Assembly: GCA_947177615.1 (NCBI GenBank)
Contig: CAMWUY010000002.1
Location: 1 to 60,645 of the forward strand
DNA: 60,645 nt
Reading direction: 5' to 3'
Source of the DNA: an uncultured Porphyromonadaceae bacterium
GTDB lineage: Bacteria; Bacteroidota; Bacteroidia; Bacteroidales; Muribaculaceae
Shown here: positions 15,394 through 48,795 of the stretch, one piece after another
How the letters are laid out: each line of letters opens with the position of its first letter
Position numbering within the stretch: position 1 is the stretch's first letter
Notes under the pieces: generated by a model
The model's database searches: none
What the model was told of the DNA's origin: nothing
Seen by the model: the letters and a program-made list of their open reading frames with translations, nothing else
Made by a program: the position numbers and the translations under genes

Positions 15394-15745
15394 GAAAATG
15401 AGTCGTTTGTGCCGTCGGCTCTCTTCATGGCTGTTATTTATTTATAAAACGAAACGCGTGAGAGCCGTATCTGATGTCCGTCCCACGGTTAGAGGCTCTG
15501 GAATGCCCATCATAGTAGAACGGACAACGCAGAGGCCTCACGCGAGTTATGATGGTATATACATACCCACGTCAGGCGTCTATCGTTGTCTCAGTCCTGA
15601 CTATGATTGAAATTTTCCAGATTCCTAACCGTCAAGAAAGAGCGTCTGATATACGCATTTCAAAATGTAAGATGTTGATACACCGCAGTGCATCCGTACA
15701 TCCCTCCCGCTTTAGCCCGTGACCGAGCCTCTGCAGTCGGTCTGT
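15394..15745 (-). promoter_or_regulatory. Structured 5' leader RNA, family copy A
   Basis: Long untranslated leader of the 14734-15393 gene. Closing stem P1 pairs GCGTGAG (15537-15543) with CTCACGC (15456-15462). Inside it TGTCCGT pairs with ACGGACA (15520-15526 with 15475-15481). GGCTCTC (15460-15466) is complementary to GAGAGCC (15417-15423), held in the loop of a small hairpin (15411-15431) 18 nt before the start codon. Further 5' are the GATAGACGC box (15576-15584), a TATATACC box (15554-15561), a hairpin 15721-15742 and a long-range 7-bp pair 15676-15682 with 15743-15749, whose outer arm reaches just past the estimated start site. Confidence 0.8.
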
Positions 15746-15750
15746 ATCAG

Positions 15751-15758
15751 CAAAAGTA
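15751..15758 (-). promoter_or_regulatory. -7 box for leader copy A
   Basis: TACTTTTG on the minus strand fits TAnnTTTG. It places transcription start near 15745, giving a leader of about 350 nt. No convincing -33 TTTG is seen. Confidence 0.5.
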
Positions 15759-15795
15759 ATAAAATTCTGTAAACTATGTATTGTTTGATTTATAT

Positions 15796-16602
15796 TTATT
15801 TCAGCAATTTTTTATTTTTGTTATCGTCGCTTTCCAATATGCTCATTTGATGAATCGCGATTTGATTTAATTTAACGAGCCTTTGAATTTGCGGGATACC
15901 TTGTTCAATAAACAGGGCATTAAGATTTTCCATATTAGAGAGACAAATAAGTTCGTTAATTGTAGCGTAATCGCGAATATTACCTTTTAGCTTGGGATTT
16001 GAATCACGCCATTGCCGCGCTGTAAGGCCAAACATTGCAACATTAAGAACATCTGCTTCATCTGCGTATAGACGAGAAGATTGTTCATATTTAATTTCTT
16101 TGGGTAGCAAATGTCTTTTAATCGCATCTGTGTGGATTCGATAATTTATTTTCGATAGTTCGCGCTTTGCTGACCATCCAAGTTGTATCTGTTCCTCAGA
16201 TTTAAGACGTTGAAATTCCTTTACTATATAAATTTTGAATTCCGGGCTAATCCACATAGCGAATTCAAACGCTATATCTTTATGCGCGTAAGTCCCACCG
16301 TAACGACCGGCTTTGGCTTGAAGTGAAATTGCATTCGTGCGCGCAACAAACTCCTTGACGCTTATTTTGAAGCTGTTAAGACCGGATTGATTCCTAATTA
16401 TGGCGAATTCGCCATAATTAAAATCAGGATTATACACTTTCTCCCATATCCCAATATATTCAAGTGTATTTCGGTTACGAAGCCAATCGGTAATGAAGAA
16501 ATCTCCGTCTTTTGCTTGTAACATGTCCGTTAGACAGATATAATCCTCACCATTTACTTGTCGAATATTGACTTCTGTGTCCTTAACTTTTATTTTTGTC
16601 AT
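15796..16602 (-). CDS. KilA-N domain protein
   Basis: A 268-residue protein with a KilA-N DNA-binding domain over about residues 1-130: ITDWLRNRNTLEYIGIWEKVYNP, then RYGGTYAHKDIAFEFAMWISPEFK, the best conserved segment of the family. The C-terminal half is helical and charged (EELKS-type stretches, then MSILESDDNKNKK). KilA-N proteins are common in phages and as chromosomal orphans in Bacteroidetes. No integrase or phage structural gene is nearby, so this looks like a solitary accessory gene. Codons are AT-rich. Target unknown. Confidence 0.8.
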   Translation of the reverse strand: MTKIKVKDTEVNIRQVNGEDYICLTDMLQAKDGDFFITDWLRNRNTLEYIGIWEKVYNPDFNYGEFAIIRNQSGLNSFKISVKEFVARTNAISLQAKAGRYGGTYAHKDIAFEFAMWISPEFKIYIVKEFQRLKSEEQIQLGWSAKRELSKINYRIHTDAIKRHLLPKEIKYEQSSRLYADEADVLNVAMFGLTARQWRDSNPKLKGNIRDYATINELICLSNMENLNALFIEQGIPQIQRLVKLNQIAIHQMSILESDDNKNKKLLK

Positions 16603-16664
16603 TATGTTAAAATATTCAGATTAAAAATACCAATGTATCTTTATATCAATTGTTGATACGGGAT

Positions 16665-16680
16665 ATAGCGTAATCGCTAT
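16665..16680. other. Small hairpin ATAGCG-TAAT-CGCTAT
   Basis: A perfect 6-bp inverted repeat with a TAAT loop in the 123-bp gap between the KilA-N gene and the upstream 16726 gene. It may form part of a transcript end, but no clear T-run follows on either strand. Confidence 0.35.
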
Positions 16681-16725
16681 CATATCATTTCAAAATAGAC
16701 TATATCTAAGTATGATATCAGAGTC

Positions 16726-17469
16726 TCATTTTGAAGTATTGAGATATACGCTGGAACTACCGTCGGGATTGACTCCTATATACGGTGTGCCAACGGCCGG
16801 GCCGCTCAATATATTGCCATTGATGTCATAATACATTATCGGAGCGGGGGTATGTCTCTCACCGGATATGGATTTAGCACCGGAACTGACAGGTGTTCCG
16901 AGAGAAAAGATTTTTGTAGTATAAGTATAAGATGTCGTGGGTTCGGAATTTCTGTCGTAAGATATATTCTGGACGCAGATAGAAGGCTTACCATTGATGT
17001 TATAGACTGCATTAAATATCGTGATTGAGAATGTCGAGGTATCTATATCTTCTATAAATGAACCGTTGCGTGCATCATACATTTTTGCAATGCAATAGTT
17101 TTTGTCTCCCAATGATATTGTTTCAGATTTAAAAGTAACCATAAACATAGGAGTTCCATCCGTGAGTCTGAGCGACGGTGAAAATGCTATGGAAGATGGC
17201 TTGTAGCCTGCGGGGATGTCATAAGTGACATGATAATAATCTCTGAGGGTGTAGTCCTCATTGTATGATATGAGGGTTACGTTGTTACCGGTGACGTTAA
17301 TGGAGGGAGATGCGAAATATGGTTCTGTATCGGCGTCTTCATATACCGGGAAGTTATATGGGAAATAGTTACCGTCAAAGGTGTGTTCGAGAACGATTTG
17401 TGAAAATGCGCTAAAACCGAGAATGATGGAGCACATTAAAATTGAAGAAAGGGAGATGATACGTTTCAT
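16726..17469 (-). CDS. Secreted protein, unknown function
   Basis: A 247-residue protein with an N-terminal signal sequence (about 1-24, ending FSAFSQ). The mature part is beta-rich, with FDGNYFPYNFPVYEDADTE near the start. The end, MYYDINGNILSGPAVG followed by YIGVNPDGSSSVYLN, looks like a variant of the short C-terminal modules of Bacteroidales secreted proteins (consensus near YYDLxGxxV...). I do not recognise a catalytic motif. It has no long leader like its neighbours at 15393 and 18457, with only 175 bp to the next gene. Confidence 0.5.
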   Translation of the reverse strand: MKRIISLSSILMCSIILGFSAFSQIVLEHTFDGNYFPYNFPVYEDADTEPYFASPSINVTGNNVTLISYNEDYTLRDYYHVTYDIPAGYKPSSIAFSPSLRLTDGTPMFMVTFKSETISLGDKNYCIAKMYDARNGSFIEDIDTSTFSITIFNAVYNINGKPSICVQNISYDRNSEPTTSYTYTTKIFSLGTPVSSGAKSISGERHTPAPIMYYDINGNILSGPAVGTPYIGVNPDGSSSVYLNTSK

Positions 17470-17644
17470 AAGTTTTTATATTTATTTATGTATTTATAAG
17501 TAGGTAAGTAGATGATTAAACTTACTTTAAACATCTGCATAACCGATTAAATTTTAATTCTGATATTTTATTATCTCATATTTAATGAATTTTTATTAAA
17601 TAAATGTTAATTGGCAAGTCATAACGGCTTGCCAATTATTTTGT

Positions 17645-18457
17645 CTACCATACGAAGAACATATCTTCAATATCAGAACCTTCAGAGTCTATCCGTTCAA
17701 CTGTCAATTTAGTCGGTAATCCCTTATCATTTATAGTCCATGTATAATTCTCTACGATTGATTCTCCGTCAAAATATTCTTCATTCCTAATTGGTAGGGA
17801 GGAGGTGGCCTTTCCAAGCAAACCTGCATAATATGCATACTGCATATCCTCATCACCAATTCCAAACATTCCCAACATCATCACTCCACCGATATTTTTA
17901 ATTGGATTGCTACCGTATGATATCTTCATTGTGCCACCATCAGCTGGTGTCATCTTAGAGCTGACGATGTCTCCGTTTTCATACGAATAATCTACTGTTC
18001 CATTTCCCTCACATGTTTGTATCTTAATTTTCTTAAGTTGGCCGTCAGTATTGTATTCAAACCAATACTCATCTACATCATCATCTTCATAAACTCGTTT
18101 GCAATATTTGGAATAACCTGATTCATTTAGTGTAATGTACAATACACGGTCAAGGTCACTCTCATCAACACTTACATGCATGATAACATCTGCATCATTG
18201 GCTCGGCTGAGACATGGATATTCAAACGTAACCTTAACAGAGCCATCAGTCAGTGCCGACACAAGACCATCATTGTTGACAGTCAGGTTCATTCCTCCGA
18301 CTTTCTGAGGGATACCATTTGTGAACACTGTAGCAGGGTTGACAGTTCCGTTACCCCCACCGTTATCAGGTTCATCTTTTTCATTACTACATGATGTAAA
18401 ATTAATGCAACAGGTAATGCTTATTGTCAACACTACCAAAAACTTCAGGAATTTCAT
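17645..18457 (-). CDS. Putative lipoprotein (DUF4595-like)
   Basis: A 270-residue protein. Residues 1-22 are a hydrophobic signal and TSCSNEKDEPDNGGG supplies a lipobox Cys23 with the acidic, glycine-rich linker usual for Bacteroidales surface lipoproteins. The beta-rich body contains DEYWFEYNTDGQLKKIKI and DYSYENGDIVSSKM, the YD-like repeats of DUF4595-type proteins, and later NYTWTINDKGLPTKL. Function is unknown. It is preceded by leader copy B. Confidence 0.6.
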   Translation of the reverse strand: MKFLKFLVVLTISITCCINFTSCSNEKDEPDNGGGNGTVNPATVFTNGIPQKVGGMNLTVNNDGLVSALTDGSVKVTFEYPCLSRANDADVIMHVSVDESDLDRVLYITLNESGYSKYCKRVYEDDDVDEYWFEYNTDGQLKKIKIQTCEGNGTVDYSYENGDIVSSKMTPADGGTMKISYGSNPIKNIGGVMMLGMFGIGDEDMQYAYYAGLLGKATSSLPIRNEEYFDGESIVENYTWTINDKGLPTKLTVERIDSEGSDIEDMFFVW

Positions 18458-18740
18458 GTCTATAACATGTTTTTTAGTTGTCCACCAGTCTCAAAAGGAC
18501 AGTTATAAATACAAAGAGGCGTAAGACTGTTATCAAATTCCGTCAATGGGTTCTGGACTACCTCTGCACTGAAAAATGAAAACAACTCACGCCTTGGCCG
18601 TATATTGACACATCAGTGCATATATGCAGACCAAGGGAGCGGTCTATCATTATTCTTCAGTGCTGTTGAATTGTCCAGATTCATTGACAAAGAATAAGCT
18701 AAACGCCACCTTTTACTATGTAAATCCTATTCAAAAGGAT
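18458..18740 (-). promoter_or_regulatory. Structured 5' leader RNA, family copy B
   Basis: Leader of the 17645-18457 lipoprotein gene. P1 pairs GGCGTGAG (18586-18593) with CTTACGCC (18518-18525), including one G-U. CAGTCT (18524-18529) is complementary to AGACTG (18486-18491), which sits in the loop of hairpin TGTCC/GGACA (18479-18501), 22 nt before the start codon. The GATAGACCGC box lies at 18639-18648 and a stretch GAATCTGGACAATTCAA further 5' aligns with copy A. The pairing is the same as in the other copies although the bases differ. Confidence 0.8.
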
Positions 18741-18744
18741 AATG

Positions 18745-18752
18745 CAAAGGTA
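18745..18752 (-). promoter_or_regulatory. -7 box for leader copy B
   Basis: TACCTTTG on the minus strand, a full TAnnTTTG match, setting the start near 18740 and a leader of about 280 nt. Confidence 0.6.
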
Positions 18753-19341
18753 GTAAAAATTTTGATAAACCGGTATTCGCGAGTTGTTTTCTTTATTTTT
18801 CTATACAGATTTTAATTCTTGGTTTAAATTGTTGAACCAAGACGTTTATATGTCTTTATTATGTTGTATTACAACCAATTCGAAATAATAAATTGCTTCA
18901 ATTTTATATCTTATTTTGTATCGATATGTTCAGAAATAGGAAGCAAAATTTCACAGTTGAGATTTTTTAAAGGTTGATTACTTTTAGATTTATTTTCAGA
19001 AAGCAATTATATACAAGAAATCGTAAATCTTTCCACTCATTAAGATTATTTAACAAATACTTTCATGTTTAACTATCTGTCGTGCATTTGTCGCATTCAT
19101 TTTTGGGGTTATATAATATTTCAAAAAGAATCTGTGAAAAATCTTAAAGTTCTGTGTATAAAGCGATGAGTACTCGGGCGATTCTGTCAGCGTGTCAATC
19201 TATTATTTGGGGATGACGTGTTGAATATTTTTGGAAATTGGGTCTCTAACGGAAACGCTCAACCTGTCGGTTGTCGCTCATGGCACAGAACGGGATGGAA
19301 TTATCACAGAATTTGAAAGTCTGTCGTCACAAATCTGAAGA
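18753..19341. other. AT-rich intergenic stretch without a recognised gene
   Basis: Nearly 600 bp with no credible ORF or RNA. One inverted repeat, CTTGGTT with AACCAAG (18818-18841), is present but lacks a T-run. The final 130 bp before recO are less AT-rich and may be its 3' untranslated end. Confidence 0.5.
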
Positions 19342-20070
19342 TTATCGGTAGAGTTCGTGGAGGATGTCGAGGCTTTTGAGTTTGGTGGGGATGGAGAGGT
19401 GGATGGAGTAATAGCGCATCAGGTGGTTGAGGATGATACGACGTTGTTCACCGGAAAAGCGGAAACGGTGATGATTGTAGAACGTCATTCTCCCTAATAG
19501 CGGGATGACAGATGAGTATTGGCTGTCTAAGAGATCGTTATGTGTGCTCATGGTCGAGCGGATGAAACTGCCGTCGCGCATATCAAACAGGTATCCCGGT
19601 CTGTACGATTGATAATCAGGTTCTATACCCATAAAGTGCAGGAGACGTATCATAAAGCAGAGATGATAGTTGACCACACTGTATTGAGTATCGTCAAGTG
19701 ACATGATAGCTGAATGGAGAAAGTGGAAGAGACCGCGGTCCTCCGGTGCACGTCGTAATAATGTCGTCAGAAAATCGGAGAGAAAGAATGTCATGGAAAT
19801 TTTGTCGGGGTCAAAATATAAGTTTTTCCATGGACCGGGCACATGGACAGTGCCGAGAAATTGCAGATCACGTGTGGAATTGAAATTGACATCCGCCTCC
19901 ACTATGGCCAATGGAGAGAGAATAGCTTTGCGCATCTTGCCGACCTTGCCGGAGGATGCTGACGAGAGAAATGATACGCGACCATGACTTTCTGTATAGA
20001 GTGTCACGATGTTATGACGGTCATTGTGGCGAAGTGTCTGCAGGAGTATACCGCGAATTTTCTCTTTCAT
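19342..20070 (-). CDS. recO: DNA repair protein RecO
   Basis: A 242-residue RecO that loads RecA on SSB-coated DNA with RecR. The N-terminal OB fold is seen in GILLQTLRHNDRHNIVTLYTE, SHGRVSF and a polar loop, and the helical C-terminal domain follows (LSDFLTTLLRRAPEDRGLF, YSVVNYHLCFMIRLLHFMGIEP). The zinc cysteines of some RecO proteins are absent, as in many Bacteroidetes members. Its ATG overlaps the stop of the membrane protein gene at 20067 by 4 nt, so translation is coupled. Confidence 0.9.
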   Translation of the reverse strand: MKEKIRGILLQTLRHNDRHNIVTLYTESHGRVSFLSSASSGKVGKMRKAILSPLAIVEADVNFNSTRDLQFLGTVHVPGPWKNLYFDPDKISMTFFLSDFLTTLLRRAPEDRGLFHFLHSAIMSLDDTQYSVVNYHLCFMIRLLHFMGIEPDYQSYRPGYLFDMRDGSFIRSTMSTHNDLLDSQYSSVIPLLGRMTFYNHHRFRFSGEQRRIILNHLMRYYSIHLSIPTKLKSLDILHELYR

Positions 20071-21554
20071 CTCTCTTGCTGATATAGCTCGATATCCTCG
20101 GTGAGCGATGTCGCTTTAGAATGATATGTGCGGCTGAAAATCCAGCCTTCACGGTCGCCGGTGAAATTATCATGAGCGAATTCTGTCTTGAATATGCTGA
20201 CAAAGCCATGGCGGCGCCATTCATCAGGGGGAGTGCTGACGCTATTATAGATACATCGTGTGAAACCGAGAATGGGAGTGACTGCACTCAATACAATACA
20301 TATCGTAAAAGCCGACTTCCACAGTATGCTGCGTTTCTTGACTTCCTTTGTGTCGGCAACTGTTTGTGAGAGTTTTAGGAATAAGAAGAATAACAATGGC
20401 AGCACTGAGCGTGAAAGGAAATCGTGTGCCTCACCCATTTGTATAAACATGCATGGGATGTATGCTAAGAACAGGAGATAAAATAGTGAGTCGCGATATA
20501 GGTTCTTGAGAGTAAGCATTATCCACGGGATAATGCAGAATAATAGGAGTGAGAAGAAAAGTTTCCAGTAGAACATCTGCTCCGGGCCGGGAGCTAATAG
20601 AGTCATGTTCAGGTGTATATTGCCCGAAGCATGGTTGGACGTGATATATGATCCGATGACAACGAGCAGAAGTATTGCCAGGATATTGACAGAGGAGAAG
20701 ACAACCCTGAGGCGCTGAGATGCATTGCGCTGACTCGCTACGAGCACAATGAGTTGCCGGATGGCAATCACGGCAAGGAGCACCTCGGAGAATGGGGCTG
20801 TGAGCAGCAACATGGCCATGGTAAAGATTGTAATGCGGGCATCGTTGCATTTGAAGATGAGCATACAACCTAAGAATGAGGGTATAAACTGATTATAGAC
20901 CCAGAATATGAGAACGTCGGGCCATTCGATAAATCCTATGCCACCCCAATTCTCGATGACGGCATCAATAAAGGGTATGATACCCGATTGCATATCATCG
21001 ACATTTCGGATCAATGCGGGTATTATATCAATCGAGCCGACAAATATCAGCAGAATAATGACCGAGAATTTGATTTTGCCGATATAGTCGAAGATTAACC
21101 AGAGGGCAGTCATAATACCGAGCCACGCCCAGATGGATTGCAGTATCCATCCGAGGGTGAGTGACCCGCAAAGCTTGGCAAGTCCGGCGGCCGGCAGCCA
21201 GTATCCGAGGTAATAGATGAGCATCTCATTGCCCTGCGTGACGGGCCACGGGTACTTGACCAGATCGATAAAGAGAGCGTTGCGAAAATCGTGATCCCAG
21301 TTGTTTTGCCACAGAAAACCCCCGACACCGGCGAGTGTGATCCAGAGTGCGATGACGATACAGATGGAGAACACCACCAGTGGTGAGCCTATGGGTGTAT
21401 ATCCCTTGAAATTCTTACACAGCGATAATAAGACCCCGACTATGCCGAGTGCGAGAGGGATGCCGATGAAGAGGTTGGTCCAGGTCAGCAAAAATATAAC
21501 AGTCGGAAGCGCCAGGTAAAAAATAGCGAAGGAATACAGTAACTTACGGCTCAT
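20067..21554 (-). CDS. Multi-pass membrane protein, unknown function
   Basis: A 495-residue protein with roughly 10-12 hydrophobic segments. The topology, with WPVTQGNEMLIYYLGYWLPA and similar aromatic loops in the first third, recalls membrane proteins that handle polyprenyl-linked sugars (GT-C glycosyltransferases). I see no diagnostic DXD/EXD motif in the first loop, so this is only a suggestion. The C-terminal 60 residues are soluble. It is coupled to recO by a 4-nt overlap; the upstream gap holds the inverted-repeat element. Confidence 0.6.
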   Translation of the reverse strand: MSRKLLYSFAIFYLALPTVIFLLTWTNLFIGIPLALGIVGVLLSLCKNFKGYTPIGSPLVVFSICIVIALWITLAGVGGFLWQNNWDHDFRNALFIDLVKYPWPVTQGNEMLIYYLGYWLPAAGLAKLCGSLTLGWILQSIWAWLGIMTALWLIFDYIGKIKFSVIILLIFVGSIDIIPALIRNVDDMQSGIIPFIDAVIENWGGIGFIEWPDVLIFWVYNQFIPSFLGCMLIFKCNDARITIFTMAMLLLTAPFSEVLLAVIAIRQLIVLVASQRNASQRLRVVFSSVNILAILLLVVIGSYITSNHASGNIHLNMTLLAPGPEQMFYWKLFFSLLLFCIIPWIMLTLKNLYRDSLFYLLFLAYIPCMFIQMGEAHDFLSRSVLPLLFFLFLKLSQTVADTKEVKKRSILWKSAFTICIVLSAVTPILGFTRCIYNSVSTPPDEWRRHGFVSIFKTEFAHDNFTGDREGWIFSRTYHSKATSLTEDIELYQQER

Positions 21555-21562
21555 AATGTATT

Positions 21563-21936
21563 AGACCCCGTTTTATAAAAAAAGTTAATGTCCGGGCCGC
21601 AGATGTGCGTCAGATTTGGCCTTGCAGCGCTCAGGAGTTTAGCGGGCTAAACGACTGAGCCAAAAGGCCGAAGATGGCGTGCAGCTGCGAGACGCGGTAT
21701 TACGACAATTATTTGTCTGCAGTCAAGGGGTTCGCAAATTTACAAAATTCGGGTTTATTTTCAAAACTTTCATCATATCCGGTTTGAAATAAAATTACTC
21801 CCTCGGCCCGGCGTCTTTTAGGCCCCTTCCGCCAAGTCTCATCAGTCGCGATGCCCGCATCGCTCCTTCTTCAACTTGCGAAATGGCCTCTAAAATCCGC
21901 CGCCCGGACATTAATTTTTTTTATAAAACGGGGTCT
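21563..21936. mobile_element. 374-bp inverted-repeat element (BIME/MITE-like)
   Basis: Terminal 35-bp repeats (21563-21597 and 21902-21936, starting AGACCCCGTTTTAT) match in 34 of 35 positions. Inside each end lies a related hairpin unit: on the plus strand 7-bp stem GTTTAGC/GCTAAAC (21637-21652), on the minus strand GCGATGC/GCATCGC (21848-21863). Both have a GG loop, both are flanked by GA on each side, and both are nested in GGCC-ended outer stems. No transposase is encoded. It is probably a non-autonomous repeat that exists elsewhere in the genome; target duplications are not clear. Confidence 0.7.
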
Positions 21937-22025
21937 TATATAGAGTTAAAAGCCACTATCCCGGGAGCGATAGTGTTCTAAATCTACAAATATAAAAAAA
22001 ATCATAAGTGTCCCACCGTCAGCAT

Positions 22026-22078
22026 AAAAAAAGCAAAAAAAGTAGCATCCGCATATTACCAACGTATTATACGGATGC
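22026..22078 (-). terminator. Rho-independent terminator of the WG-repeat gene
   Basis: A 10-bp stem (22045-22054 with 22069-22078, GCATCCG core) is followed on the minus strand by two T-runs. It lies 56 nt after the stop codon of the WG-repeat lipoprotein gene. A second hairpin, CACTATC/GATAGTG, is further downstream near 21955-21976. Confidence 0.8.
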
Positions 22079-22133
22079 CACCGATCGTTTCAGAATATAT
22101 CTGAGATATCTTTTAATTAGTCACTGATTTAAA

Positions 22134-23888: not shown

Positions 23889-24192
23889 AATACATCTGTA
23901 AAAATGATTATGAAAGCGTCCTCTCTTTCATAAGATTGATTAATAAGGAAGCGTAGGACGATGTTCGGTTTATTTTACTTAGGTATCGCCTAACTTCTTA
24001 TCAACAATAAACAGTACACTCCCACGGCTTATCGAATATCTCTTCCCTGTCGGAGCATGGATATACGACAAACATGAGCGTTTTTATGACTGCAAATCCT
24101 GTTGATCTAAAAATTTGGCGATTTCAGAGTAAAGGAATAAGCACGAAACGCTTCAGTTATGTAAAAAAAGTATCAAGAGATTTCTCCCCTGA
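23889..24192 (-). promoter_or_regulatory. Structured 5' leader RNA, family copy C
   Basis: About 304-nt leader. P1 pairs CGTGGGA (24020-24026) with TCCTACG (23952-23958). Inside, GTTTATT pairs with AATAAAC (24006-24012 with 23968-23974). CGTCCT (23955-23960) is complementary to AGGACG (23917-23922) in the 8-nt loop of a perfect 9-bp hairpin (23908-23933) 20 nt before the start codon. The TATATCC box is at 24059-24065. The whole leader is nearly the same as copy D at 30254. Confidence 0.85.
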
Positions 24193-24197
24193 TACTA

Positions 24198-24227
24198 CAA
24201 AGTTAATAAAAAAGTTTTAACTACAAA
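24198..24227 (-). promoter_or_regulatory. Promoter of leader copy C
   Basis: On the minus strand TTTG (24224-24227), 18 nt, then TAACTTTG (24198-24205), a full -7 match. Start expected near 24192. The same promoter precedes copy D. Confidence 0.75.
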
Positions 24228-24287
24228 TCTATTCGTCAAATTTTCGAATTAATACAATCATCACGCCTGCTTTCAACCTACTTTCAA

Positions 24288-25793: not shown

Positions 25794-25829
25794 ATTGTAT
25801 ATGTTGATCGATGGGTCGAGTTCAATTGT

Positions 25830-27584: not shown

Positions 27585-27628
27585 ATAATTTATAGAGGAA
27601 ATAAGTTAAGTTGTTTCGGTAGTGCTGT

Positions 27629-29608: not shown

Positions 29609-29653
29609 TATGTCATTAGCTAATATTAACACAGGTATTAAGAGAATAGAGTT

Positions 29654-30253: not shown

Positions 30254-30558
30254 AATACATCGCGTAAAATGATTATGAAAGCGTCCTCTCTTTCATAAGG
30301 TTGATTAATAAGGAAGCGTAGGACGATGTTCGGTTTATTTTACTCTAGGCATCGCCAAACGCCTGATCAACAATAAACAGTCCACTCCCACGCCTTATCG
30401 AATATCTGTTCCCTGTCGGGGAGTGGATATACGACAAACATGAGCGTTTTAATGACTGCTTAATCCTGTTGACCTAAAAATTTGGCGATTTCAGAGTAAA
30501 GGAATAAGCACGAAACGCTTCAGTTATGTAAAAAAGTATCAAGAGATTGCTCCCCTGA
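30254..30558 (-). promoter_or_regulatory. Structured 5' leader RNA, family copy D
   Basis: Leader of the four-gene envelope operon, nearly the same as copy C. P1 pairs GCGTGGGA (30386-30393) with TCCTACGC (30316-30323), one G-U. GTTTATT/AATAAAC lies inside (30372-30378 with 30333-30339). CGTCCT (30320-30325) is complementary to AGGACG (30282-30287) in the loop of a perfect 9-bp hairpin (30273-30298), 20 nt before the start codon. An upper stem CCACTCCC/GGGAGTGG is perfect here but partly lost in copy C. Confidence 0.85.
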
Positions 30559-30563
30559 TGTTG

Positions 30564-30593
30564 CAAAGTTAATAAAAAAGTTTTAACTACAAA
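30564..30593 (-). promoter_or_regulatory. Promoter of leader copy D
   Basis: TTTG (30590-30593), 18 nt, TAACTTTG (30564-30571) on the minus strand, the same as for copy C. Confidence 0.75.
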
Positions 30594-30773
30594 TCTATTC
30601 GTCAAATTTTCATATTTCATATTATGGGCCTATTATGGGTATGTGGCATTTGATGAGTTTGTCACCGGGTAATTGTTACGGTTGTGAGAAAATTTGTGAT
30701 AATATATTGTTTATGCAGTTGTTCTGGCGTTGATGGTTCGTGTCCTGTGGGGAAAGGGGGCTAAGATTTAGTA

Positions 30774-35589: not shown

Positions 35590-35624
35590 TTGTCAAGTGT
35601 TGAGGGCAATTTTTTGTATATTTG
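35590..35624 (+). promoter_or_regulatory. mtaB promoter
   Basis: TATATTTG at 35617-35624 matches the -7 consensus and a TTG at 35590-35592 could be the -33. The transcript would begin at about 35631, leaving only a 10-14 nt leader before the ATG at 35643 and ruling out the TTG codon at 35622 as start. Confidence 0.6.
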
Positions 35625-35642
35625 GACGCTATCTTACAATCC

Positions 35643-36965: not shown

Positions 36966-36968
36966 ACA

Positions 36969-37961: not shown

Positions 37962-38079
37962 TAGGTAATAGGGAATTGGGAAGAGGTAATAGGTAATAGT
38001 TATGAGTTATGAAGTAATAGGGTGTTGTTATTACCATTGACCGGTGACTAATACTGATGACTTGATTAATAGAGAAGAT

Positions 38080-38847: not shown

Positions 38848-38868
38848 AGGGCGCAATTACCATATAAT

Positions 38869-38914
38869 AAGTCACGCAAATCAGAGTGTTGAACTGATTT
38901 GCGTGACTTGTTTT
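38869..38914. terminator. Perfect 16-bp hairpin, probable bidirectional terminator
   Basis: A 16-nt arm beginning AAGTCACGCAAATCAG (38869-38884) pairs fully with 38894-38909 across a 9-nt loop and is followed by GTTTT. It lies 22 nt after the surE stop. The convergent surface-protein gene stops at 38955, so the hairpin can end transcripts from both sides. Confidence 0.85.
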
Positions 38915-38954
38915 ATATTCTTGCGATGCAAGAATACTCGGTATAGTCGGTATG

Positions 38955-41585: not shown

Positions 41586-41590
41586 CTTGA

Positions 41591-44500
41591 TTATTTTATC
41601 ATTATTTCCTTAGAGTACCTGCCGGCACTTACGATGTATATGCCGGACATAAGTGAGATAGATTCATCGTCGGAAGCAGCGATATGATTGACTACAACAG
41701 CGCCATCCGAAGAGCAAATGATTATATTCTCACCCATAGCGTTATAAACATGGATAGTGTTATCCAACGCTGCAATCACGATTGAATCATCAACCGTTGT
41801 ACCAACAGCAGTAGTGATGTCGCTCCGTCCACCTTCGGATGTGAGTCGATATTCAATTGCATCAGCATCAGCAGCGTACGCATTGGATATCTTCAATTCA
41901 CCGGTAATCTCTCTGTCAGCGTAGACAGTAACAAGGATAATCGCATCATCAGTATCGGCAAAAGTCGAGTTGTTGATATCAAACAGTGCAAAGCGTACAC
42001 GGTCATTGCCCAAAGTATTTGTGGCCAGTACATGAGATGACACGCCACGCTCACCTGTCTTGATATCGACAATGCTCAAACCGGACGGGAGGATTATATC
42101 ACCCTGCAATGCGACATAATCTCTGCTGTCATTGAGATGAACAGCCACTGTTGCGTGCTGACCCGGAGCAATCATAAAGTCATCGATAATCAGAGCATCC
42201 GAATCGACATCACCGATTATTGAACGTGCGCGCACCGGACTTGCTTCATCCTCGGCAGGTTGGTTAAGAACTATAGATACCGTAGCAGTCGCGTCGGCCA
42301 GTGTGATACGGTTGTCGCCGTTTACATCCGCGGCTTCCTCACAGAAATCTTTTACCTCATTGCCGACAGCGTAGTTGGCGGTATTGACAGCGTCCGTAAT
42401 GGTTACCCGGTCGTCATCATTGGAGTCTCCGGCAGTCGGAGGAATGACAGTGACAGCGCAACGGTATGTGACGCCCGAACCGTCTGTTGCACTCGCTGTA
42501 ATATTGGCAGTACCCTTATATTGGGCATGCAGGGTGCCGTCTTCATCAATGGTTACAACAGATGTGTTGTCAGATTTCCATGTCAAAGTCCGGTATGTAG
42601 CGTTTTCGGGATAAACTGTAGTTGTTATCTGACCCTCTCTGCCTACTTTAATGATGTAGTCGGAATCTCCGTCGATTCTCTGTACCGGAGTAGGTGTGAC
42701 AGTGAGGTGACACTCTGCGTATACACCTGAGCCATCGGCAGTGTAGGCGGTGATTACAGCCTCACCGGGTGCTTTGCCGGTGATGAGTCCGTTGCCGTCT
42801 ACCGTAGCGACTTCCGTATCGTTTGAGCGGTAGAGTACGGTCGCGTCCGTAGCATCATTCGGAAGTGCGGATGCGGTCAGCTGCAGGGTCTCGCTGTCAC
42901 AGATTGTGGCTTGAGTCTTATCGAGTGTGATAGAGGATACGAGAGTCGTGTCAGTCAGGGGAAGTATTCTGAAGAATTCCCACCATGTATCAGAATCCTT
43001 ATAGTCATCGACAGACTCAGCGGGTACGAATACAGTGCCGTTATCAACCACATTTTGCGGGAAACCGGGAGAACCTACCGGGGGAACGGTATTGTAAACC
43101 TTGATATGATTGATTGCAGCGCAATCCTGGAAGCAATTGACACCTAAGGATGTTACATTTTTGCCAATCGAGACGGAAGCAGCGTTGGTACAACCCTTGA
43201 ATGCGCGTGCACCTACAGAACTGAGTGCTCCTTCCGGAATAGTTATATATGGCAAGCTCGCGCAACCCTGAAATGATTCGACACCGAGTCCATACACTTT
43301 GGCCGGTATATCGAGCGAAGCAAGCTTGGAGCAATTTTCAAATGCTCTGGGACCGATAATGCCGAGATTTGCATTGAGTCGAAGATTAATAAGATTGCTG
43401 CAATTGGAGAAACATCCGTCAGAAATGCTTGTCAATGTCGAGGGCATTATGACATTGTCGAGGGAGATGTTGCCGGCAAAAGCTCGTTCACCCAACGAGG
43501 TCAGTCCCTCACCCAACGAAAGTGTCTTCAGCGCCTCGCATTGGTAGAATGCCTCTTCGCCGATGGATTCGATACCGTCAGGAATTGCGACAGCCGGGAG
43601 TGTGGAACAATTGCTGAAGAGGTATTTGCCGATTGTTCCGGCCTTGGGACTGATGGTAAGTTTGGTCAGTCCCGTCTGATTACAGAACGGCGCAACAGTT
43701 TTTGTATTGATGTCGTATGAGAGCCAGCGGCCGAGATAGAGGTCTGTGACAGGACAATCTGCGAACAGGCTGTTTTCACCATCTTTTGAGGCCACTGTCA
43801 TTATCTCCGTGCCATCCTCCATGCGAAGATTGGACATGGAGGCGCATGCTGTAAATGCTCCGGTATTAATATATTTTACCGAGGCCGGGATTGAAAGGTT
43901 ATTCAGCAGGGTGCAATTATTGAACACATTCTCATCCAACGTCGGCAGTTGGTTTGAGAGAGTTACAGTCTCGAGCGCGATATCATTCATGAATACAGCT
44001 TTGCCGAGAGATGTCACACTGTTGGGGATGTCGCAATATTCGAGAGCGGACATATTGTAGAAAGCATAGTCACCGATATTCACGAGCGATGCAGGGAGTT
44101 TGAATGATTTTACCGAGTTACAACCTGCCAGCATATAATTGTTTATCGCGGTCACGTTGCCGGACTGTGAGAAACTTACATTTTCTAATGTAGTTATATC
44201 ATAGAAAGGTGAATATCCATAATTTTCAGCCGGAGTGTAGTTGATATTTCGTCCTATATAGAGTCCTTTGAGCGGTGAGTTGTGGAACATACCGGTGCTG
44301 TCGGAGTCATAGGATATATCCAAAGGCGTCGCGGCATCGTTGAGTCTTACCTCCGCAAGTGAGGTACACTGAGAGAATGCTCCGTACCCGACACTCTGCA
44401 CAGAAGCGGGGATATAGACTGACTGCAACGATGTGCAATCAGCGAGGAGATATTCAGAAATCCTTTCCAGTTTTTCGGAGAGATGAATATTCTGCAGGGC

Positions 44501-47500
44501 AGAGCAACGACGGAATGCTCCCTCTCCGGCTGATGTAACATCATCCGGCATCTGTACATTACCGAGAGTGATGTCCCCGGAGAATGCGTAGTCACCTATA
44601 TTAACCAGACTTTCCGGGAATGTGACGGCCGATAAGTTCTCCGCCTCATAGAGGAAGTAATAAGGGATAGAAGTGACATCGCCGGATGTAGAGAACTTCA
44701 GGTCAGTCAAAGCTAACTGACGGTAGAACGGTGCATGTTCGTAGGGTCTGTTGTAAGAGTCGAGATTGTAAACAATGTCACGTCCTACATACAGGGAACG
44801 TATCGGTGATTCATCGAACATGGAGTTGGCAGTGCCGAGAGTCAATGGCTCATCGCTATCATTGATAGTAATGTCGGCAAGGCTTTTACATCCGTTGAAT
44901 GCACCATCCTTTATTTCTGATAGTGAACCGGGAAGTATGATGAGAGGGAGCGAGGCGCAATTGCGGAACGCATAACTGTTGATGACTTCAAGGTTGTCTG
45001 GTAATGTTATTGAGCTTACATTTGTACATCCATCGAGCAGATAGTCATAAATGGTTGTAACATAGTTGCCGGTGAACATAACTCTGTTCAATGTAGTTCT
45101 GTCACGGAATGGCGAAATGCTGTTGGAAAATGTGTAAGTCAGATTTCTACCGATACGAAGTGTCTTCAGAGGTGAGTCGGTAAACATCGGAATCTCCAGT
45201 GCATTCTCACTGTTACTGAATGAGAGAGAGGATAGTGATGAGCAACCGTCAAAACTTCCGCCCCCAATTGATTTTACACTTCCGGGAATTGTCATTGACA
45301 GCAATTCGGCACACCCGTCGAAGCAGAAGCCTCCGATGGTCTCGATACCGGGGTTGAGTGTGGCAAGAGCCAATGTGTGACAGTTCTGGAATGCCTTATA
45401 GCCGATTGTCGCAGTAGTGCCCGGTATGGATATTTCAGTAAGTACTGAGCAGTTGCGGAATGCGGAGTTACCTATTGATTCGAGTTGTGAACCGAGGGAA
45501 ACGTAAGTCAGTTTAACGCAATCCTCGAACGCAGAATCACCAATACGAGTCAAGGTGTTTGGGAGAAGAGCAGCTGTAAGAGCCTTACAGTCGGAGAATG
45601 CGAATGCCCCAATCTCTTTCAGACCCTCCTTGAACTCAATCTGGGCAATACTTGCATCATTTTTGAATGCTCCGGTGCCGATAGTCTCTAATTCATTCGG
45701 GAGAGTGAGATTAATGAGTGAAGTACAATTACGGAATGCATCGTTGCCGATAATCTTTTGTCCTCCAAAAGTTACCGTATTAAGTTTCGGGCAATCCATA
45801 AACGCCTTTGCTCCTATTTCAGTCACACTCTGCGGTAAAGTAAGGGTTGTAAGGTTTTCAAAATTCTGAAATCCGCTTTCGGCAATCGCAACGACATTGA
45901 ATGTTCCTCCGTTATAATTGACCTGCGAGGGTATATTGAGTGATTCCGGTCGGTTATCGGGATGGGCAAGTGCCTCGACGTTATTGTCGTCAATAGGAAT
46001 ATATGAGCAGATGTCGTCATAAAACCACTCTCTGATTTCCGGGATTGAAGACCAATAGTTAGCAGTAGAATATTCGTTTTTTGTATTGTAAGGTACGTAG
46101 GCTATTGTTGTATCACAACCGGTATCGAATGTTTGGCTATTGGCTGTCGGTATCTTTTTTGCCAAACATACAATTTTACTAAGTTGATTACATTTCTGGA
46201 AAAGATAATTTCCGAGAGATGTTACCTTATCTCCTATTGTGACTTTTATTAGTTTAGTCCGATTATAAAACGGCGAATAACCATATTCGTAATTTGAAGC
46301 ATAAGATAAATTTCTTCCGATATATACCTCTTCCAGCGGACAGTAGTAAAACAGTCCCTTACCGGTGTAAGAATAGTAATAAGAGCCTAAACTCACAGAG
46401 GAATCACTGTCTTCAAAAACAACTTTCTTTAGTGACGTACAATAGTAAAATGGCAAATTTGAGTAGTCAGAATTACTGCTGCCAATACTTGTAACACTTG
46501 CCGGTATTGTGATACTTTCGAGCGATGTGCAGTTAGCGAAAGCTGCAAGGCCGATAGTCTTCACGGATTTACCGATATTGACAGTTTTCAGTTTAGAACA
46601 ACCTCTGAATGCGGCACCTGAGATAGCTGTTATATTATCTCCTATATTACATTCCGTAAGATTTTGGCAGTTCTCAAAAGCACAACTTGGAATACTTACA
46701 TTCATAGAAGATTGAATATCAACAATCCTTACATTTGAACCCGCAAATACAGCCATTCCTAAAGTTGTAATTGCTTCCGGCAGTTTAACTATCTCTAATC
46801 CGGAAGATGCAAAAGCATATTCACCTAATGTGGACAAACCATTAGGAAAATCCATATATTTAAGATTACTACACTCTCGGAATGCGTAATTATCAATTTT
46901 CTGTAATGTAGCCGGTAGTTTGGCTGTTGTGAGATTGGCGTTTTTCTCAAATGCGTATTGTCCTATTGAAGTTAGTCCTTCGGGAAACTCAATGGTGGAT
47001 AAATCACATTCTGAGAAGCAATAATTCTGAATAGATGTAATATTTTCCCCAAGTTTCAAGGATTTAAGGTTTGAACATTTATAGAAAAGAAAACTGTTTA
47101 GTGATGTTACCTTATCCCCGATAGTGACTTTTATTAGTTTAGTCCGATTATAAAACGGCGAATAACCATATTCGTAATTTGAAGCATAAGATAAATTTCT
47201 TCCGATATATACCTCTTCCAGCGGACAGTAGTAAAACAGTCCCTTACCGGTGTAAGAATAGTAATAAGAGCCTAAACTCACAGAGGAATCACTGTCTTCA
47301 AAAACAACTTTCTTTAGTGACGTACAATAGTAAAATGGCAAATTTGAGTAGTCAGAATTACTGCTGCCAATACTTGTAACACTTGCCGGTATTGAGATAC
47401 TTTCGAGGGAAGTGCAGTTGGCGAATGCAGAGGAATTTATTTTTGTCACAGTATAGGTGTCACCTGCATATTCTACTGTCGTAGGGATTACAAGGTCTCT

Positions 47501-47680
47501 CGGCGGATTTGAATATCCGGTGATAGTGGCCGTGTTTCCTGAGCTATAAGAGGAAAGGGAGTAGACTAATCCGTCTATTGTCGCTGAGCCTGAGTAGGCA
47601 GCGTGGGCGACGTTCAGTCCAATTAATAGCAATAGCAGTGATAGCCATCGCTTCAATGAAAATGATGTTAAGTAAGTCAT
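41591..47680 (-). CDS. Giant BspA-type leucine-rich surface protein (2029 residues)
   Basis: A 2029-residue exported protein (signal about 1-27). More than 1500 residues are LRR_5/BspA repeats of the type SLESISIPASVTSIGSSAF..., many with a C-x-N-L pattern. They are followed by two Big2 domains (about 1590-1670 and 1675-1745) and a dockerin-like pair (GDSNDDDRVTITDAV and AADVNGDNRITLADAT, about 1748-1815). A cohesin-like domain (1830-1955) and a short sorting-like tail (SGIYIVSAGRYSKEIMIK) complete it. It should be a surface adhesin. Two 271-bp blocks inside are identical by eye. Confidence 0.85.
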   Translation of the reverse strand: MTYLTSFSLKRWLSLLLLLIGLNVAHAAYSGSATIDGLVYSLSSYSSGNTATITGYSNPPRDLVIPTTVEYAGDTYTVTKINSSAFANCTSLESISIPASVTSIGSSNSDYSNLPFYYCTSLKKVVFEDSDSSVSLGSYYYSYTGKGLFYYCPLEEVYIGRNLSYASNYEYGYSPFYNRTKLIKVTIGDKVTSLNSFLFYKCSNLKSLKLGENITSIQNYCFSECDLSTIEFPEGLTSIGQYAFEKNANLTTAKLPATLQKIDNYAFRECSNLKYMDFPNGLSTLGEYAFASSGLEIVKLPEAITTLGMAVFAGSNVRIVDIQSSMNVSIPSCAFENCQNLTECNIGDNITAISGAAFRGCSKLKTVNIGKSVKTIGLAAFANCTSLESITIPASVTSIGSSNSDYSNLPFYYCTSLKKVVFEDSDSSVSLGSYYYSYTGKGLFYYCPLEEVYIGRNLSYASNYEYGYSPFYNRTKLIKVTIGDKVTSLGNYLFQKCNQLSKIVCLAKKIPTANSQTFDTGCDTTIAYVPYNTKNEYSTANYWSSIPEIREWFYDDICSYIPIDDNNVEALAHPDNRPESLNIPSQVNYNGGTFNVVAIAESGFQNFENLTTLTLPQSVTEIGAKAFMDCPKLNTVTFGGQKIIGNDAFRNCTSLINLTLPNELETIGTGAFKNDASIAQIEFKEGLKEIGAFAFSDCKALTAALLPNTLTRIGDSAFEDCVKLTYVSLGSQLESIGNSAFRNCSVLTEISIPGTTATIGYKAFQNCHTLALATLNPGIETIGGFCFDGCAELLSMTIPGSVKSIGGGSFDGCSSLSSLSFSNSENALEIPMFTDSPLKTLRIGRNLTYTFSNSISPFRDRTTLNRVMFTGNYVTTIYDYLLDGCTNVSSITLPDNLEVINSYAFRNCASLPLIILPGSLSEIKDGAFNGCKSLADITINDSDEPLTLGTANSMFDESPIRSLYVGRDIVYNLDSYNRPYEHAPFYRQLALTDLKFSTSGDVTSIPYYFLYEAENLSAVTFPESLVNIGDYAFSGDITLGNVQMPDDVTSAGEGAFRRCSALQNIHLSEKLERISEYLLADCTSLQSVYIPASVQSVGYGAFSQCTSLAEVRLNDAATPLDISYDSDSTGMFHNSPLKGLYIGRNINYTPAENYGYSPFYDITTLENVSFSQSGNVTAINNYMLAGCNSVKSFKLPASLVNIGDYAFYNMSALEYCDIPNSVTSLGKAVFMNDIALETVTLSNQLPTLDENVFNNCTLLNNLSIPASVKYINTGAFTACASMSNLRMEDGTEIMTVASKDGENSLFADCPVTDLYLGRWLSYDINTKTVAPFCNQTGLTKLTISPKAGTIGKYLFSNCSTLPAVAIPDGIESIGEEAFYQCEALKTLSLGEGLTSLGERAFAGNISLDNVIMPSTLTSISDGCFSNCSNLINLRLNANLGIIGPRAFENCSKLASLDIPAKVYGLGVESFQGCASLPYITIPEGALSSVGARAFKGCTNAASVSIGKNVTSLGVNCFQDCAAINHIKVYNTVPPVGSPGFPQNVVDNGTVFVPAESVDDYKDSDTWWEFFRILPLTDTTLVSSITLDKTQATICDSETLQLTASALPNDATDATVLYRSNDTEVATVDGNGLITGKAPGEAVITAYTADGSGVYAECHLTVTPTPVQRIDGDSDYIIKVGREGQITTTVYPENATYRTLTWKSDNTSVVTIDEDGTLHAQYKGTANITASATDGSGVTYRCAVTVIPPTAGDSNDDDRVTITDAVNTANYAVGNEVKDFCEEAADVNGDNRITLADATATVSIVLNQPAEDEASPVRARSIIGDVDSDALIIDDFMIAPGQHATVAVHLNDSRDYVALQGDIILPSGLSIVDIKTGERGVSSHVLATNTLGNDRVRFALFDINNSTFADTDDAIILVTVYADREITGELKISNAYAADADAIEYRLTSEGGRSDITTAVGTTVDDSIVIAALDNTIHVYNAMGENIIICSSDGAVVVNHIAASDDESISLMSGIYIVSAGRYSKEIMIK
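46239..46509. repeat. Internal gene repeat, copy 1 (271 bp)
   Basis: Identical by eye to 47124-47394, 885 bp away, within the 2029-residue protein gene. It encodes two to three leucine-rich repeats. Identity ends sharply at both edges, where the flanks diverge. Confidence 0.85.
47124..47394. repeat. Internal gene repeat, copy 2 (271 bp)
   Basis: Partner of 46239-46509. Both are in the same reading frame and orientation, so recombination between them would delete 295 codons in frame. Confidence 0.85.
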
Positions 47681-47783
47681 ATAATTTAGTTTTGGTTTGA
47701 TTTGTCAGTTATATGATAGGTTAGTTTAAGTACACAATATGCAACCGTGACTTATCTTTATGGGTGATATTGTCCTATTGCAG

Positions 47784-48425
47784 TTATTTTTCAGATTTCT
47801 CTTGCAGAAATTTATAAGCTATGATTATGTTTGAATATATTCTACTTTCGATGTAATACCTGCATGATATTGAGCAAATGAGGAGGATTATGGATATAAT
47901 CATGATACAGCACGGATGTATACAACATGAGCAACAGCAACATAAGCACCAACACTTTCGGATTATACATAATGAGAGGCTTATGATAGTGGAGATAATG
48001 CAGACTCCGCTCAGATTCATCAGGAATGCTGATAATGTCTCAAGCGCGGGTATATTCCCCAACAAGTTGCCTTGTTGTACAGTGTAGTAATATGTGTAAT
48101 AGGTATATAGAGGTTTCTTGGAGTCGTCTTTGATGTCGGGAAAGGGAATATCCCATTTTTTACAAATCTTTCTGATACTTGAAAGTTTGTTCTTATAGAA
48201 AACATAATGTAAAGGACACTTATTTAATCCTGCAAGTTTATCAATGAGTAATGAGAAGAAGAGACCTGTGATAAAGCACGCAACGACATATATACCAAGA
48301 GGTATAGGCCCGTCTATGCACGAGATGTTAAAACAGGGTATGGCAAAAAGCCATAGCGACAGGAGGAAACCGATGACCAGCCGGTTGAGCGAATCATAAA
48401 ATGAAGAGCCGAGCAGAGGAGTCAT
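47784..48425 (-). CDS. Small membrane protein, unknown function
   Basis: A 213-residue protein with four or five hydrophobic segments: about 15-30, 45-65, a soluble stretch 70-115 (Lys-rich, with a YTYYYTVQQGN turn), and 130-200. Many cysteines (RKCWCLCCCCSCCIHPCC) crowd a membrane-facing segment, which is unusual. I recognise no family. It is preceded by leader copy E, so it is regulated like the exported proteins at 14.7-30 kb. Its stop is 104 nt from the start of the giant surface-protein gene. Confidence 0.55.
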   Translation of the reverse strand: MTPLLGSSFYDSLNRLVIGFLLSLWLFAIPCFNISCIDGPIPLGIYVVACFITGLFFSLLIDKLAGLNKCPLHYVFYKNKLSSIRKICKKWDIPFPDIKDDSKKPLYTYYTYYYTVQQGNLLGNIPALETLSAFLMNLSGVCIISTIISLSLCIIRKCWCLCCCCSCCIHPCCIMIISIILLICSISCRYYIESRIYSNIIIAYKFLQEKSEK

Positions 48426-48795
48426 AATATAAAGTCATCCTTGGCTCTCAACATGGATATAATGCAGTAGTAAAAAAGTATAATGACAGAAAGCGTGAGA
48501 GCCTTATTTGTTGCCCGTCCCGCTGTCTGAGGCCTACCACAGCCTACCTATGCAGACGAGCAACGTAGACCTCACGCCGATATGAACAACCCGTCACCTC
48601 CTGATACCGGGAGGATAATGACGGTATATAATCATACCCATGAGCATCTATCGTCGCTCTGTTTTCGGCATAGGTCCTGGAATTGTGGTAGTTTCAGACA
48701 ACCAAAAACAGGCGCAAATAAACGCCTTCAATATGTTTGAAATTCCCTCACCTTTTGGGACATAGAGATATGTCACACCCGAACGGCGTGAGAAT
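48426..48795 (-). promoter_or_regulatory. Structured 5' leader RNA, family copy E
   Basis: About 370-nt leader, closest to copy A. P1 pairs GCGTGAG (48571-48577) with CTCACGC (48493-48499). Inside, GTTGCTCGTC (48555-48564) pairs with GACGGGCAAC (48510-48519), with one G-U. GGCTCTC (48497-48503) is complementary to GAGAGCC (48443-48449) in the loop of ATCC/GGAT hairpin (48437-48458), 12 nt before the start codon. GATAGATGC (48644-48652), TATATACC (48623-48630) and a GACAT/ATGTC hairpin further 5' match copy A. Confidence 0.8.

Follow-up and report, generated by a model that had tools for sequence, protein, structure and literature searches.

Five genes on the minus strand of contig CAMWUY010000002.1, from an uncultured Porphyromonadaceae bacterium, are each preceded by a long leader, and the question raised by this arrangement is whether these leaders (here a to e) are copies of one regulatory RNA and, if so, how such an RNA would act. 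The stretch analyzed, hereafter the window, is 60,645 nt long and represents contig 2 of a 2.2-Mb, 213-contig, 82%-complete metagenome-assembled genome (MAG). Based on comparative sequence analysis, we consider it rather likely that the leaders belong to an unlisted structured-RNA family of Bacteroidota that acts in cis as a bistable transcription attenuator, and the family is thus read here as probably a built-in on/off switch for its genes.

Long-range duplex and two incompatible folds

Each window leader contains a duplex of ~22 bp made up of three helices (HA, HB and HC) whose paired segments lie 80-115 nt apart, a feature that the initial annotation of this DNA had missed. With hand-set borders the duplex energies in leaders a to e are -30.0, -29.7, -25.2, -33.0 and -38.3 kcal/mol, and the best of 500 shuffles gave -21.1, -17.8, -17.2, -20.4 and -28.5, the cis energy being reached by 0/500 in every leader (these shuffles, like those for promoter, fold energy and small open reading frames below, keep single-base composition only). 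The pairing is also apparent in a 12-sequence alignment of leaders a and e with ten copies from outside the window, from which leaders b, c and d were omitted as too diverged (15 copies were then known). In that alignment HB (e.g., TCTGGTA/TACCAGA) is paired in 12/12 sequences at all seven positions, HA (e.g., ACGGTCTG/CAGACCGT) in 12/12 at seven of eight positions and 11/12 at the other, and HC (e.g., ATGGAGT/ACTCCAT) in 12/12 at six of eight positions, with 5/12 and 2/12 at its ends; compensatory two-sided changes occur at most positions of the three helices. Given that the ten outside copies were picked by BLAST similarity alone, this pairing is nearly free of structural selection.

A larger set was derived from 165 covariance-model matches, of which 157 were retained after eight weak ones were dropped by hand and 136 after removal of sequences with a similarity ratio >0.93 or cores <150 nt. 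The 126 of these with an upstream TAnnTTTG box, for which the covariation set is thus selected, were aligned without structure, and columns filled in less than half of the rows were dropped (422 of 937 kept; 225 kept for the short form described below). Under a null that keeps the tree, 14 pairs were significant, all of them in HA, HB and HC. The covariation statistic G of whole helices was reached in 0/400 simulations for P1, HA, HB, HC, HD, PA, P2, P3, P7, P8, 5H and 5S, in 2/400 for HF and in 10/400 for HE. In a separate alignment of 92 short-form sequences, where helix counterparts were assigned by position and sequence, the values were 0/300 for HA, HB and P8, 1/300 for P2, 2/300 each for PA and P7, and 3/300 for HE; the alternatives there are HE GCTCACGC-AAT-GCGTGGGC versus P8 GCGTGGG...CCCACGC-AGATTTTTT.

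These helices fall into two sets, fold A and fold T (Table 1), that claim the same columns more than once: 313-316 belong to both P1 and P8, 229-235 to HE and P8, and 243-248 to HD and P7. In addition, P7 encloses the 3' strands of HA-HC with a linker of ~1 nt on each side, and on geometric grounds the full duplex and P7 should be unable to coexist because the linkers are so short. The alignments thus indicate that incompatible folds A and T are each conserved, P8 being excluded by HE and by P1 through shared nucleotides. Fold T is built of local parts, among them the most conserved segments of the element; the mean entropy of the near-invariant segments is 0.18 bits for GCGTGAGGC, 0.06 for GCCT, 0.29 for GCGTTTACT and 0.37 for GGGCAa.

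HA and HC, at 1.2-1.6 bits, rank with the most variable segments of the element and lie beside blocks whose entropy falls to 0.06-0.4 bits. The mean cis duplex energy is -33.0 (n = 126), as against -12.7 ± 4.9 for 2000 random partners, and among 17 copies of the window's own genome (without c and d) the cis partner was best for 15/17 of the 5' strands and 16/17 of the 3' strands, with means of -30.0 in cis and -11.7 in trans. The 5'-strand exceptions are L046 and leader b, which was cut by the alignment (with hand-set borders it gives the cis value listed above). Most copies therefore pair best with themselves, since HA and HC vary between copies yet stay complementary within each. This insulation is imperfect for recent duplicates, as the 91.8%-identical leaders c and d cross-pair, the 5' strand of c giving -33.6 with leader d versus -25.2 with itself.

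The RNA made from the sense strand is what is selected, because G-U far exceeds A-C overall in paired columns (1658 versus 197 cells over all helices, ~8:1 on the sense strand). A promoter box was found in 124/130 sequences versus 16.4 in mononucleotide shuffles, and 108 of the 124 boxes sit 76-136 nt before the core. After P7/P8 there follows a T tract (7.7/10 versus 1.8/10 in a downstream stretch, 126 sequences), i.e., a terminator-like hairpin with a T-rich tract. A further hairpin, P9, pairs at -9.6 in cis versus -7.6 in trans (n = 123), with 0/200 shuffles reaching it.

Layout of the five window leaders

The layout that had been ascribed to the five leaders was largely borne out. The TAnnTTTG box proposed as common to them was located at all five, the closed domain said to measure 76-88 nt has a GCGTGAG/CTCACGC-type closing stem and measures 88, 76, 78, 78 and 85 nt in a to e, and the reported 60-67 nt to the start codon are 62, 60, 62, 62 and 67 nt from domain end to ATG, with the extra hairpin recognized as P9 (GGCTCTC/GAGAGCC, CAGTCTT/GAGACTG or CGTCC/GGACG) in 5/5. 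Upstream boxes that had been described as aligning hold up loosely: GATAGAYGC is exact in 2/5 (genes starting at 15393 and 48425), the leader at 18457 carries GATAGACCG instead, and those at 23888 and 30253 carry AAAACGC. Identity between leaders c and d is 91.8%; the 60 nt upstream are 75% identical, sequence farther upstream 29%, and the coding sequences 41% over their first 60 nt and 27% thereafter. It seems from these sequences that the promoter-leader module itself was copied between the two loci, because the leaders and adjacent upstream DNA are alike and the flanks and coding sequences are not.

Table 1. Positions of leaders a to e and their parts in the window, and helices of the two folds as columns of the 422-column alignment
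Feature	Position	Strand	Remarks
Leader a with promoter box	15394..15758	-	precedes gene 14734-15393; R1 190 bits at 15456-15637
Leader b with promoter	18458..18752	-	precedes lipoprotein-like gene (DUF4595) 17645-18457; R1 34.7 bits, E 1.5e-6; R2 E 1.2e-6
Leader c with promoter	23889..24205	-	precedes WG-repeat, lipoprotein-like gene 22134-23888; assigned by architecture and identity to leader d
Leader d with promoter	30254..30571	-	precedes exported-protein gene 29654-30253; weak R2 match at 30342-30497, E 0.15
Leader e with promoter	48426..48808	-	precedes membrane-protein-like gene 47784-48425; R1 153.8 bits at 48493-48707
Promoter boxes TAnnTTTG, a to e	15751-15758, 18745-18752, 24198-24205, 30564-30571, 48801-48808	-	
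Leader a, P8 (GCGTGAG/CTCACGC)	15456..15543	-	encloses P7 (15518-15528/15473-15484); terminator-like arm, then GTTTCGTTTT
Leader a, P9 (GGCTCTC/GAGAGCC)	15417..15466	-	overlaps 3' arm of P8; support for P9 is at family level
Leader b, P8 (GGCGTGAG/CTTACGCC)	18518..18593	-	
Leader c, P8	24020-24028/23951-23958	-	
Leader d, P8	30386-30393/30316-30323	-	
Leader e, P8	48571-48577/48493-48499	-	P7 48556-48564/48510-48518
Leader a, 5' strands	15600..15632	-	HA 15625-15632, HB 15615-15621, HC 15600-15607
Leader a, 3' strands	15485..15516	-	HC 15509-15516, HB 15497-15503, HA 15485-15492
Leader b, HA-HC	18542..18688	-	HA 18682-18688/18542-18548, HB 18673-18679/18552-18558, HC 18656-18663/18566-18573
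Leader c, HA-HC	HA 24126-24133/23974-23980, HB 24117-24122/23985-23990, HC 24100-24106/24000-24006	-	
Leader d, HA-HC	HA 30493-30500/30339-30346, HB 30484-30489/30351-30356, HC 30467-30473/30366-30372	-	
Leader e, HA-HC	HA 48695-48702/48522-48529, HB 48684-48691/48534-48541, HC 48668-48674/48547-48553	-	
Fold A helices (columns)	P1 74-81/313-320, HA 102-110/279-287, HB 113-119/269-275, HC 127-134/255-262, HD 144-150/242-248, HE 157-164/229-236, HF 164-170/220-226		nested; column 164 is shared by HE and HF
Fold T helices (columns)	PA 78-86/150-158, P2 96-103/133-140, P3 109-112/122-125, P7 243-253/289-299, P8 228-235/309-316, GGGC/GCCU stem 263-266/276-279, 5H 26-34/234-242		

Two neighboring features were also observed. 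Downstream of the leader-e gene, on the same strand, lie a gene for a 2029-aa BspA-type leucine-rich repeat (LRR) protein and a Big_2/LRR gene (38955-47680, minus strand), and downstream of the leader-a gene lies an FopS small RNA (RF04319, a family of paralogous small RNAs) at 14349-14415 on the minus strand.

Spread in Bacteroidota, known families and downstream genes

The five copies within 33 kb that had first been noted are real, but the family is far larger, with 19 copies in the MAG and a range that spans the phylum. A BLAST search with leader a found copies on 10 other contigs of its own genome (best E 2.7e-24), and the covariance model R1 found 16 copies there (weakest E 1.3e-9), two in the window and 14 outside it; the total of 19 adds the leaders at 18457, 23888 and 30253, the latter two on the basis of architecture and not of a model match, R1 at E 0.01 on the window having left leaders c and d unmatched. 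Across 16 genomes of the genus, R1 found 16 copies in the window genome and 1-9 in each of its 15 relatives, and the copy number of the window genome perhaps reflects a recent expansion. R1 matched 337/397 genomes of the family in the Genome Taxonomy Database (GTDB), in 28/30 genera, 74/393 genomes of the order (six of these within the same family) and 8/295 genomes of the class, four of them outside the order; through these a shorter form, about 158 nt long, came to light. R2, a covariance model made from five short-form sequences, matched 93/395 genomes of the class (83 outside the order) and 29/247 genomes of the phylum (eight outside the class). In searches of >40 genomes, scoring was confined to the top 5-12 candidates of each genome, which makes the copy counts from them lower bounds. 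R1 detects short-form members and R2 detects window leaders b (E 1.2e-6) and a (E 4.8e-6), and from these cross-matches the long and short forms look like one family.

A pattern search with the long form found at least 115 stretches, and among the matches listed the records are nearly all MAGs of Muribaculaceae or other Bacteroidales, 3/80 long-form records (L119, L137 and L146) bearing Lachnospiraceae or Clostridium titles. Neither plasmids nor phages contained a match to the long-form element L031, plasmids (the only set searched with it) contained none to the short-form element L228, and the long-form pattern had 0 matches in viral_contigs. The short-form pattern matched four IMG/VR contigs (L325-L328) that were confirmed by R2 (E 6.1e-16 to 1.6e-18), one of the four members preceding a response-regulator-like open reading frame (ORF). 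Carriage of the family by a virus or provirus is thus possible, as is the alternative that these four contigs contain host flank.

Comparison with Rfam 15 (4227 models), which had been suggested as a check, placed no family over the element on its own strand wherever it was scanned. At gathering thresholds the whole window gave only RF04319 FopS, outside the leaders; at E<=1 over 15300-30700 (leaders a-d) nothing fell on the leaders, the 48425 leader being scanned at gathering thresholds only; and E-value scans of 38 loci (12, 6 and 20) gave nothing on the strand of the element. In L223, a stretch overlapping the short form, but on the other strand, resembles snoU82P below the gathering threshold (24.3 of 42 bits, E 0.016), which looks like chance. 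Two orphan RNAs of the phylum were considered and rejected as identities of the element. Flavo-1 (RF01705), which is likewise repeated in Bacteroidota genomes and differs in being a 76-nt model, gave its only match in the 20 class loci at L255:1046-1121, 380 nt upstream of the short-form element at 1501-1661. Bacteroidales-1 (RF01693), likewise an orphan structured RNA of Bacteroidales according to an excerpt of PMC2864571, gave none over leaders a-d at E<=1 and likewise none in 12 loci at E<=0.1, assuming that RF01693 is among the 4227 models.

No description of the leader RNA was found in the literature searched, including excerpts of PMC2864571, PMC8040213, PMC7366714 and PMC9723704, and Bacteroidota names gave no matches by term in PMC11109978 and PMC8632094. 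Excerpts of these sources report that Flavo-1 accounts for the position of some structured 5' regions of Flavobacterium, which coincide with it (PMC9723704), that 13.5% of the mRNAs of B. thetaiotaomicron have a 5' untranslated region >100 nt (PMC7366714), and that there are 3161 candidates in PMC8040213, among which fragments of the leader family may be present. The covariance search of Bacteroidales genomes that had been proposed returned many homologues close upstream of genes, with covarying stems. The early description of the leaders as an orphan cis-regulatory RNA class is upheld by the positive tree-aware tests of base pairing, the position of the homologues before genes and the lack of an Rfam match on the strand of the element.

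An ORF of at least 60 aa starts within 420 nt of 125/128 long-form elements (median 62 nt, a rate given without a control). The claim that all of the genes encode exported, lipidated or membrane proteins held in part: by a home-made signal-peptide rule the downstream proteins of the long form are mostly signal-like (87/125), but not all members of the family precede such genes (37/81 for the short form). By the same rule, 64/78 were signal-like versus 199/513 six-frame control ORFs, a comparison that is indicative only. Protein families were assigned for the 118 of 136 long-form elements that gave an ORF of at least 80 aa and for 80 short-form elements (of 92 matches, 11 lacked an ORF by the rule used and L315 was omitted from the protein alignment); counts are among the first 25 families listed for each set. 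The long-form proteins include BspA-type LRR_5 (19), DUF4595 (4), BACON (3), outer membrane protein barrels (2-3) and LytTR (2), as well as one methylase, and the short-form proteins include N6_N4 methylases (4), response regulators (4), beta-propellers (4), RibD_C (3), sigma factors (2) and HsdR (1). The downstream set looks like one of accessory genes, mostly but not only for surface proteins. A link to defense genes was followed and is not the main theme, in counts made among the first 25 families listed and without a matched background: by Pfam the short-form set has four N6_N4 methylases, two N6 methylases and one HsdR N-terminus (members may overlap), by PADLOC up to five methylases per model, and the long-form set has one type III methylase and one HKD+Snf2 protein. 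Judged by their N-termini, the genes that directly follow short-form leaders L233, L235, L236, L239, L242, L243 and L283 are type III or other restriction-modification methylase-like or HsdR-like.

Proposed attenuation and its alternatives

If the leaders are attenuators, the RNA would start just below the TAnnTTTG box and adopt one of two structures. Fold A is one giant irregular hairpin (P1, HA, HB, HC, HD, HE and HF) in which HE holds GCGTGAG upstream and in which the terminator arm and T tract are masked by P1, a pairing of AAAnGCGU with ACGCnUUUU. Fold T consists of local PA, P2, P3, the GGGC/GCCU mini-hairpin, P7 and P8, followed by the T-rich tract, with a 5' hairpin loop pairing beside P8. 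Transcription would stop with fold T and pass with fold A, the choice being set by a trigger that may be a ligand, a protein or folding speed. Because the P2 and P7 loops are complementary over almost their full length, HB could begin as a 7-nt loop-loop kiss; such a kiss, joining the loop of P3 to that of GGGC/GCCU, would spread to HA and HC and open P7, favoring read-through, and P1 and P9 would then lock the open state. The free minimum-energy fold is A-like in 123/126 sequences and T-like in 2/126, and the best fold averages -125.1 kcal/mol with HA-HC enforced versus -112.6 with P7+P8 enforced (gap 12.5 ± 7.3, pseudoknots excluded). If these energies hold, fold T would need kinetic or external help, since it lies ~12 kcal/mol above fold A.

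In terminator-type riboswitches, as in protein-dependent attenuators, an antiterminator and a terminator in the 5' leader exclude each other, and the leader family resembles them in its two exclusive folds. It differs in that its antiterminator would be a ~22-bp duplex that varies by copy and in that no single downstream pathway was seen. In antisense control of the pT181 and ColE1 types, a loop-loop kiss can be extended to a long duplex, and in pT181 leader pairing pre-empts a terminator; here, by contrast, both loops lie in one RNA and an antisense gene is not needed.

Several observations weigh against a bistable attenuator. Interruptions occur in the T tracts of the copies in the window (GTTTCGTTTT, TCTTTGTATT, TTCCTTATTA and TTTCTGTCAT), which makes strong intrinsic termination at these copies doubtful. 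The 3' strand of P9 and part of P1 would emerge past the T tract, so that they could not join the decision and would fit control of translation or stability equally, and HB alone could coexist with fold T. When the named helices are summed alone the folds are equal in energy (-38.6 versus -39.4; A lower in 57/126), and there is little or no excess of G-U over A-C in P3 (19:19), 5S (30:23) and HC (35:25). As to covariation, on the fraction paired the null reaches HD in 11/400, HE in 11/400, P8 in 13/400 and P3 in 131/400 simulations; the support for P1 and P8 comes from few changing pairs; and the 499/504 paired cells of the GGGC/GCCU stem are a count without a null comparison. When P8 is set on row C42 of the 12-row alignment, it is paired in 2/12 at 5/7 positions, a low value explained by C38 and C42 being shifted by one there. 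R1 contained HA-HD, so the sampling of homologues leans toward them (P1, PA, P2, P7, P8, P9 and 5H were not in R1). Lastly, HC, HD, P1 and P9 were not recovered in the 92 short-form sequences, where the P3 counterpart was marginal (19/300), and R2 with filters off at E 1 did not match leaders c and e and matched d weakly (E 0.15).

An alternative that we take seriously, while thinking it unlikely, is an orphan riboswitch in which the compact fold T is the aptamer for one metabolite and binding stabilizes the terminator or, in reverse, the giant hairpin. This would account for the near-invariant segments outside the variable duplex (0.06-0.37 bits) and for a P7+P8-enforced fold that, at ~12 kcal/mol above fold A, needs help. 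A metabolite sensor usually precedes genes of that metabolite, and no common pathway is evident among LRR proteins, DUF4595, methylases and response regulators, which are among the first 25 families listed for each form.

It is rather unlikely, in our view, that the leader is a processive antitermination or loading site through its binding by a protein or by RNA polymerase carrying an antitermination factor. Leader-binding antitermination is represented by the LoaP/EAR and UpxY systems, and a conserved leader that is large, has a promoter box of its own and frequently precedes genes for surface proteins (BspA-type LRR 19/118), together with a patchy copy number (1-16 per genome within the genus), would suit it; what it does not require is two competing folds. 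We also regard as rather unlikely a post-transcriptional role, with the giant hairpin as an RNase III substrate or stability element or with P9 controlling translation. The giant irregular hairpin being the most stable fold, the statistically supported position of P9 directly before the ATG and the interrupted T tracts of the window all fit such a role, which leaves unexplained the conservation of P7/P8 and the T tract in the long form and the P7/P8 counterparts in the short form.

Ribosome-mediated attenuation through a leader peptide is very improbable. A terminator-like hairpin with alternative hairpins is present and 104/126 sequences have an ATG at alignment column 155, but leader a has ACG at that site, a change compatible with pairing, early ATG-initiated small ORFs of at least 8 codons show no excess (86/126 leaders versus 93.8 ± 5.0 shuffled), and the genes seen downstream do not form biosynthetic operons. 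The many copies per genome and the near identity of leaders c and d before different genes might suggest a repeat, or a mobile element ending in palindromes, at the level of DNA; no search aimed at target duplications or transposases was made, but this reading is scarcely credible given the ~8:1 asymmetry of G-U over A-C on the sense strand, which already disfavors it, and the similar spacing of promoter box and start codon.

Returning to the bistable attenuator, we propose more tentatively, as an idea somewhat short of likely, that the family forms phylum-wide self-insulated switches: one body reused before many accessory genes (up to 19 per genome) would answer one common cellular signal, a cis kiss would strand-displace the terminator, and cross-talk would be limited by the copy-specific ~22-bp duplex. 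The RNA family described here, without an Rfam match or a found description, occurs in the majority of the genomes sampled from one GTDB family, and many other genomes of the phylum also have it. If it is a switch, it would place surface adhesin-like proteins, lipoproteins and certain restriction genes under a single signal, and it would be an unusual case of covariation supporting two competing folds of one RNA. It also suggests a way in which mispairing might be avoided among numerous paralogous switches of the same cell.

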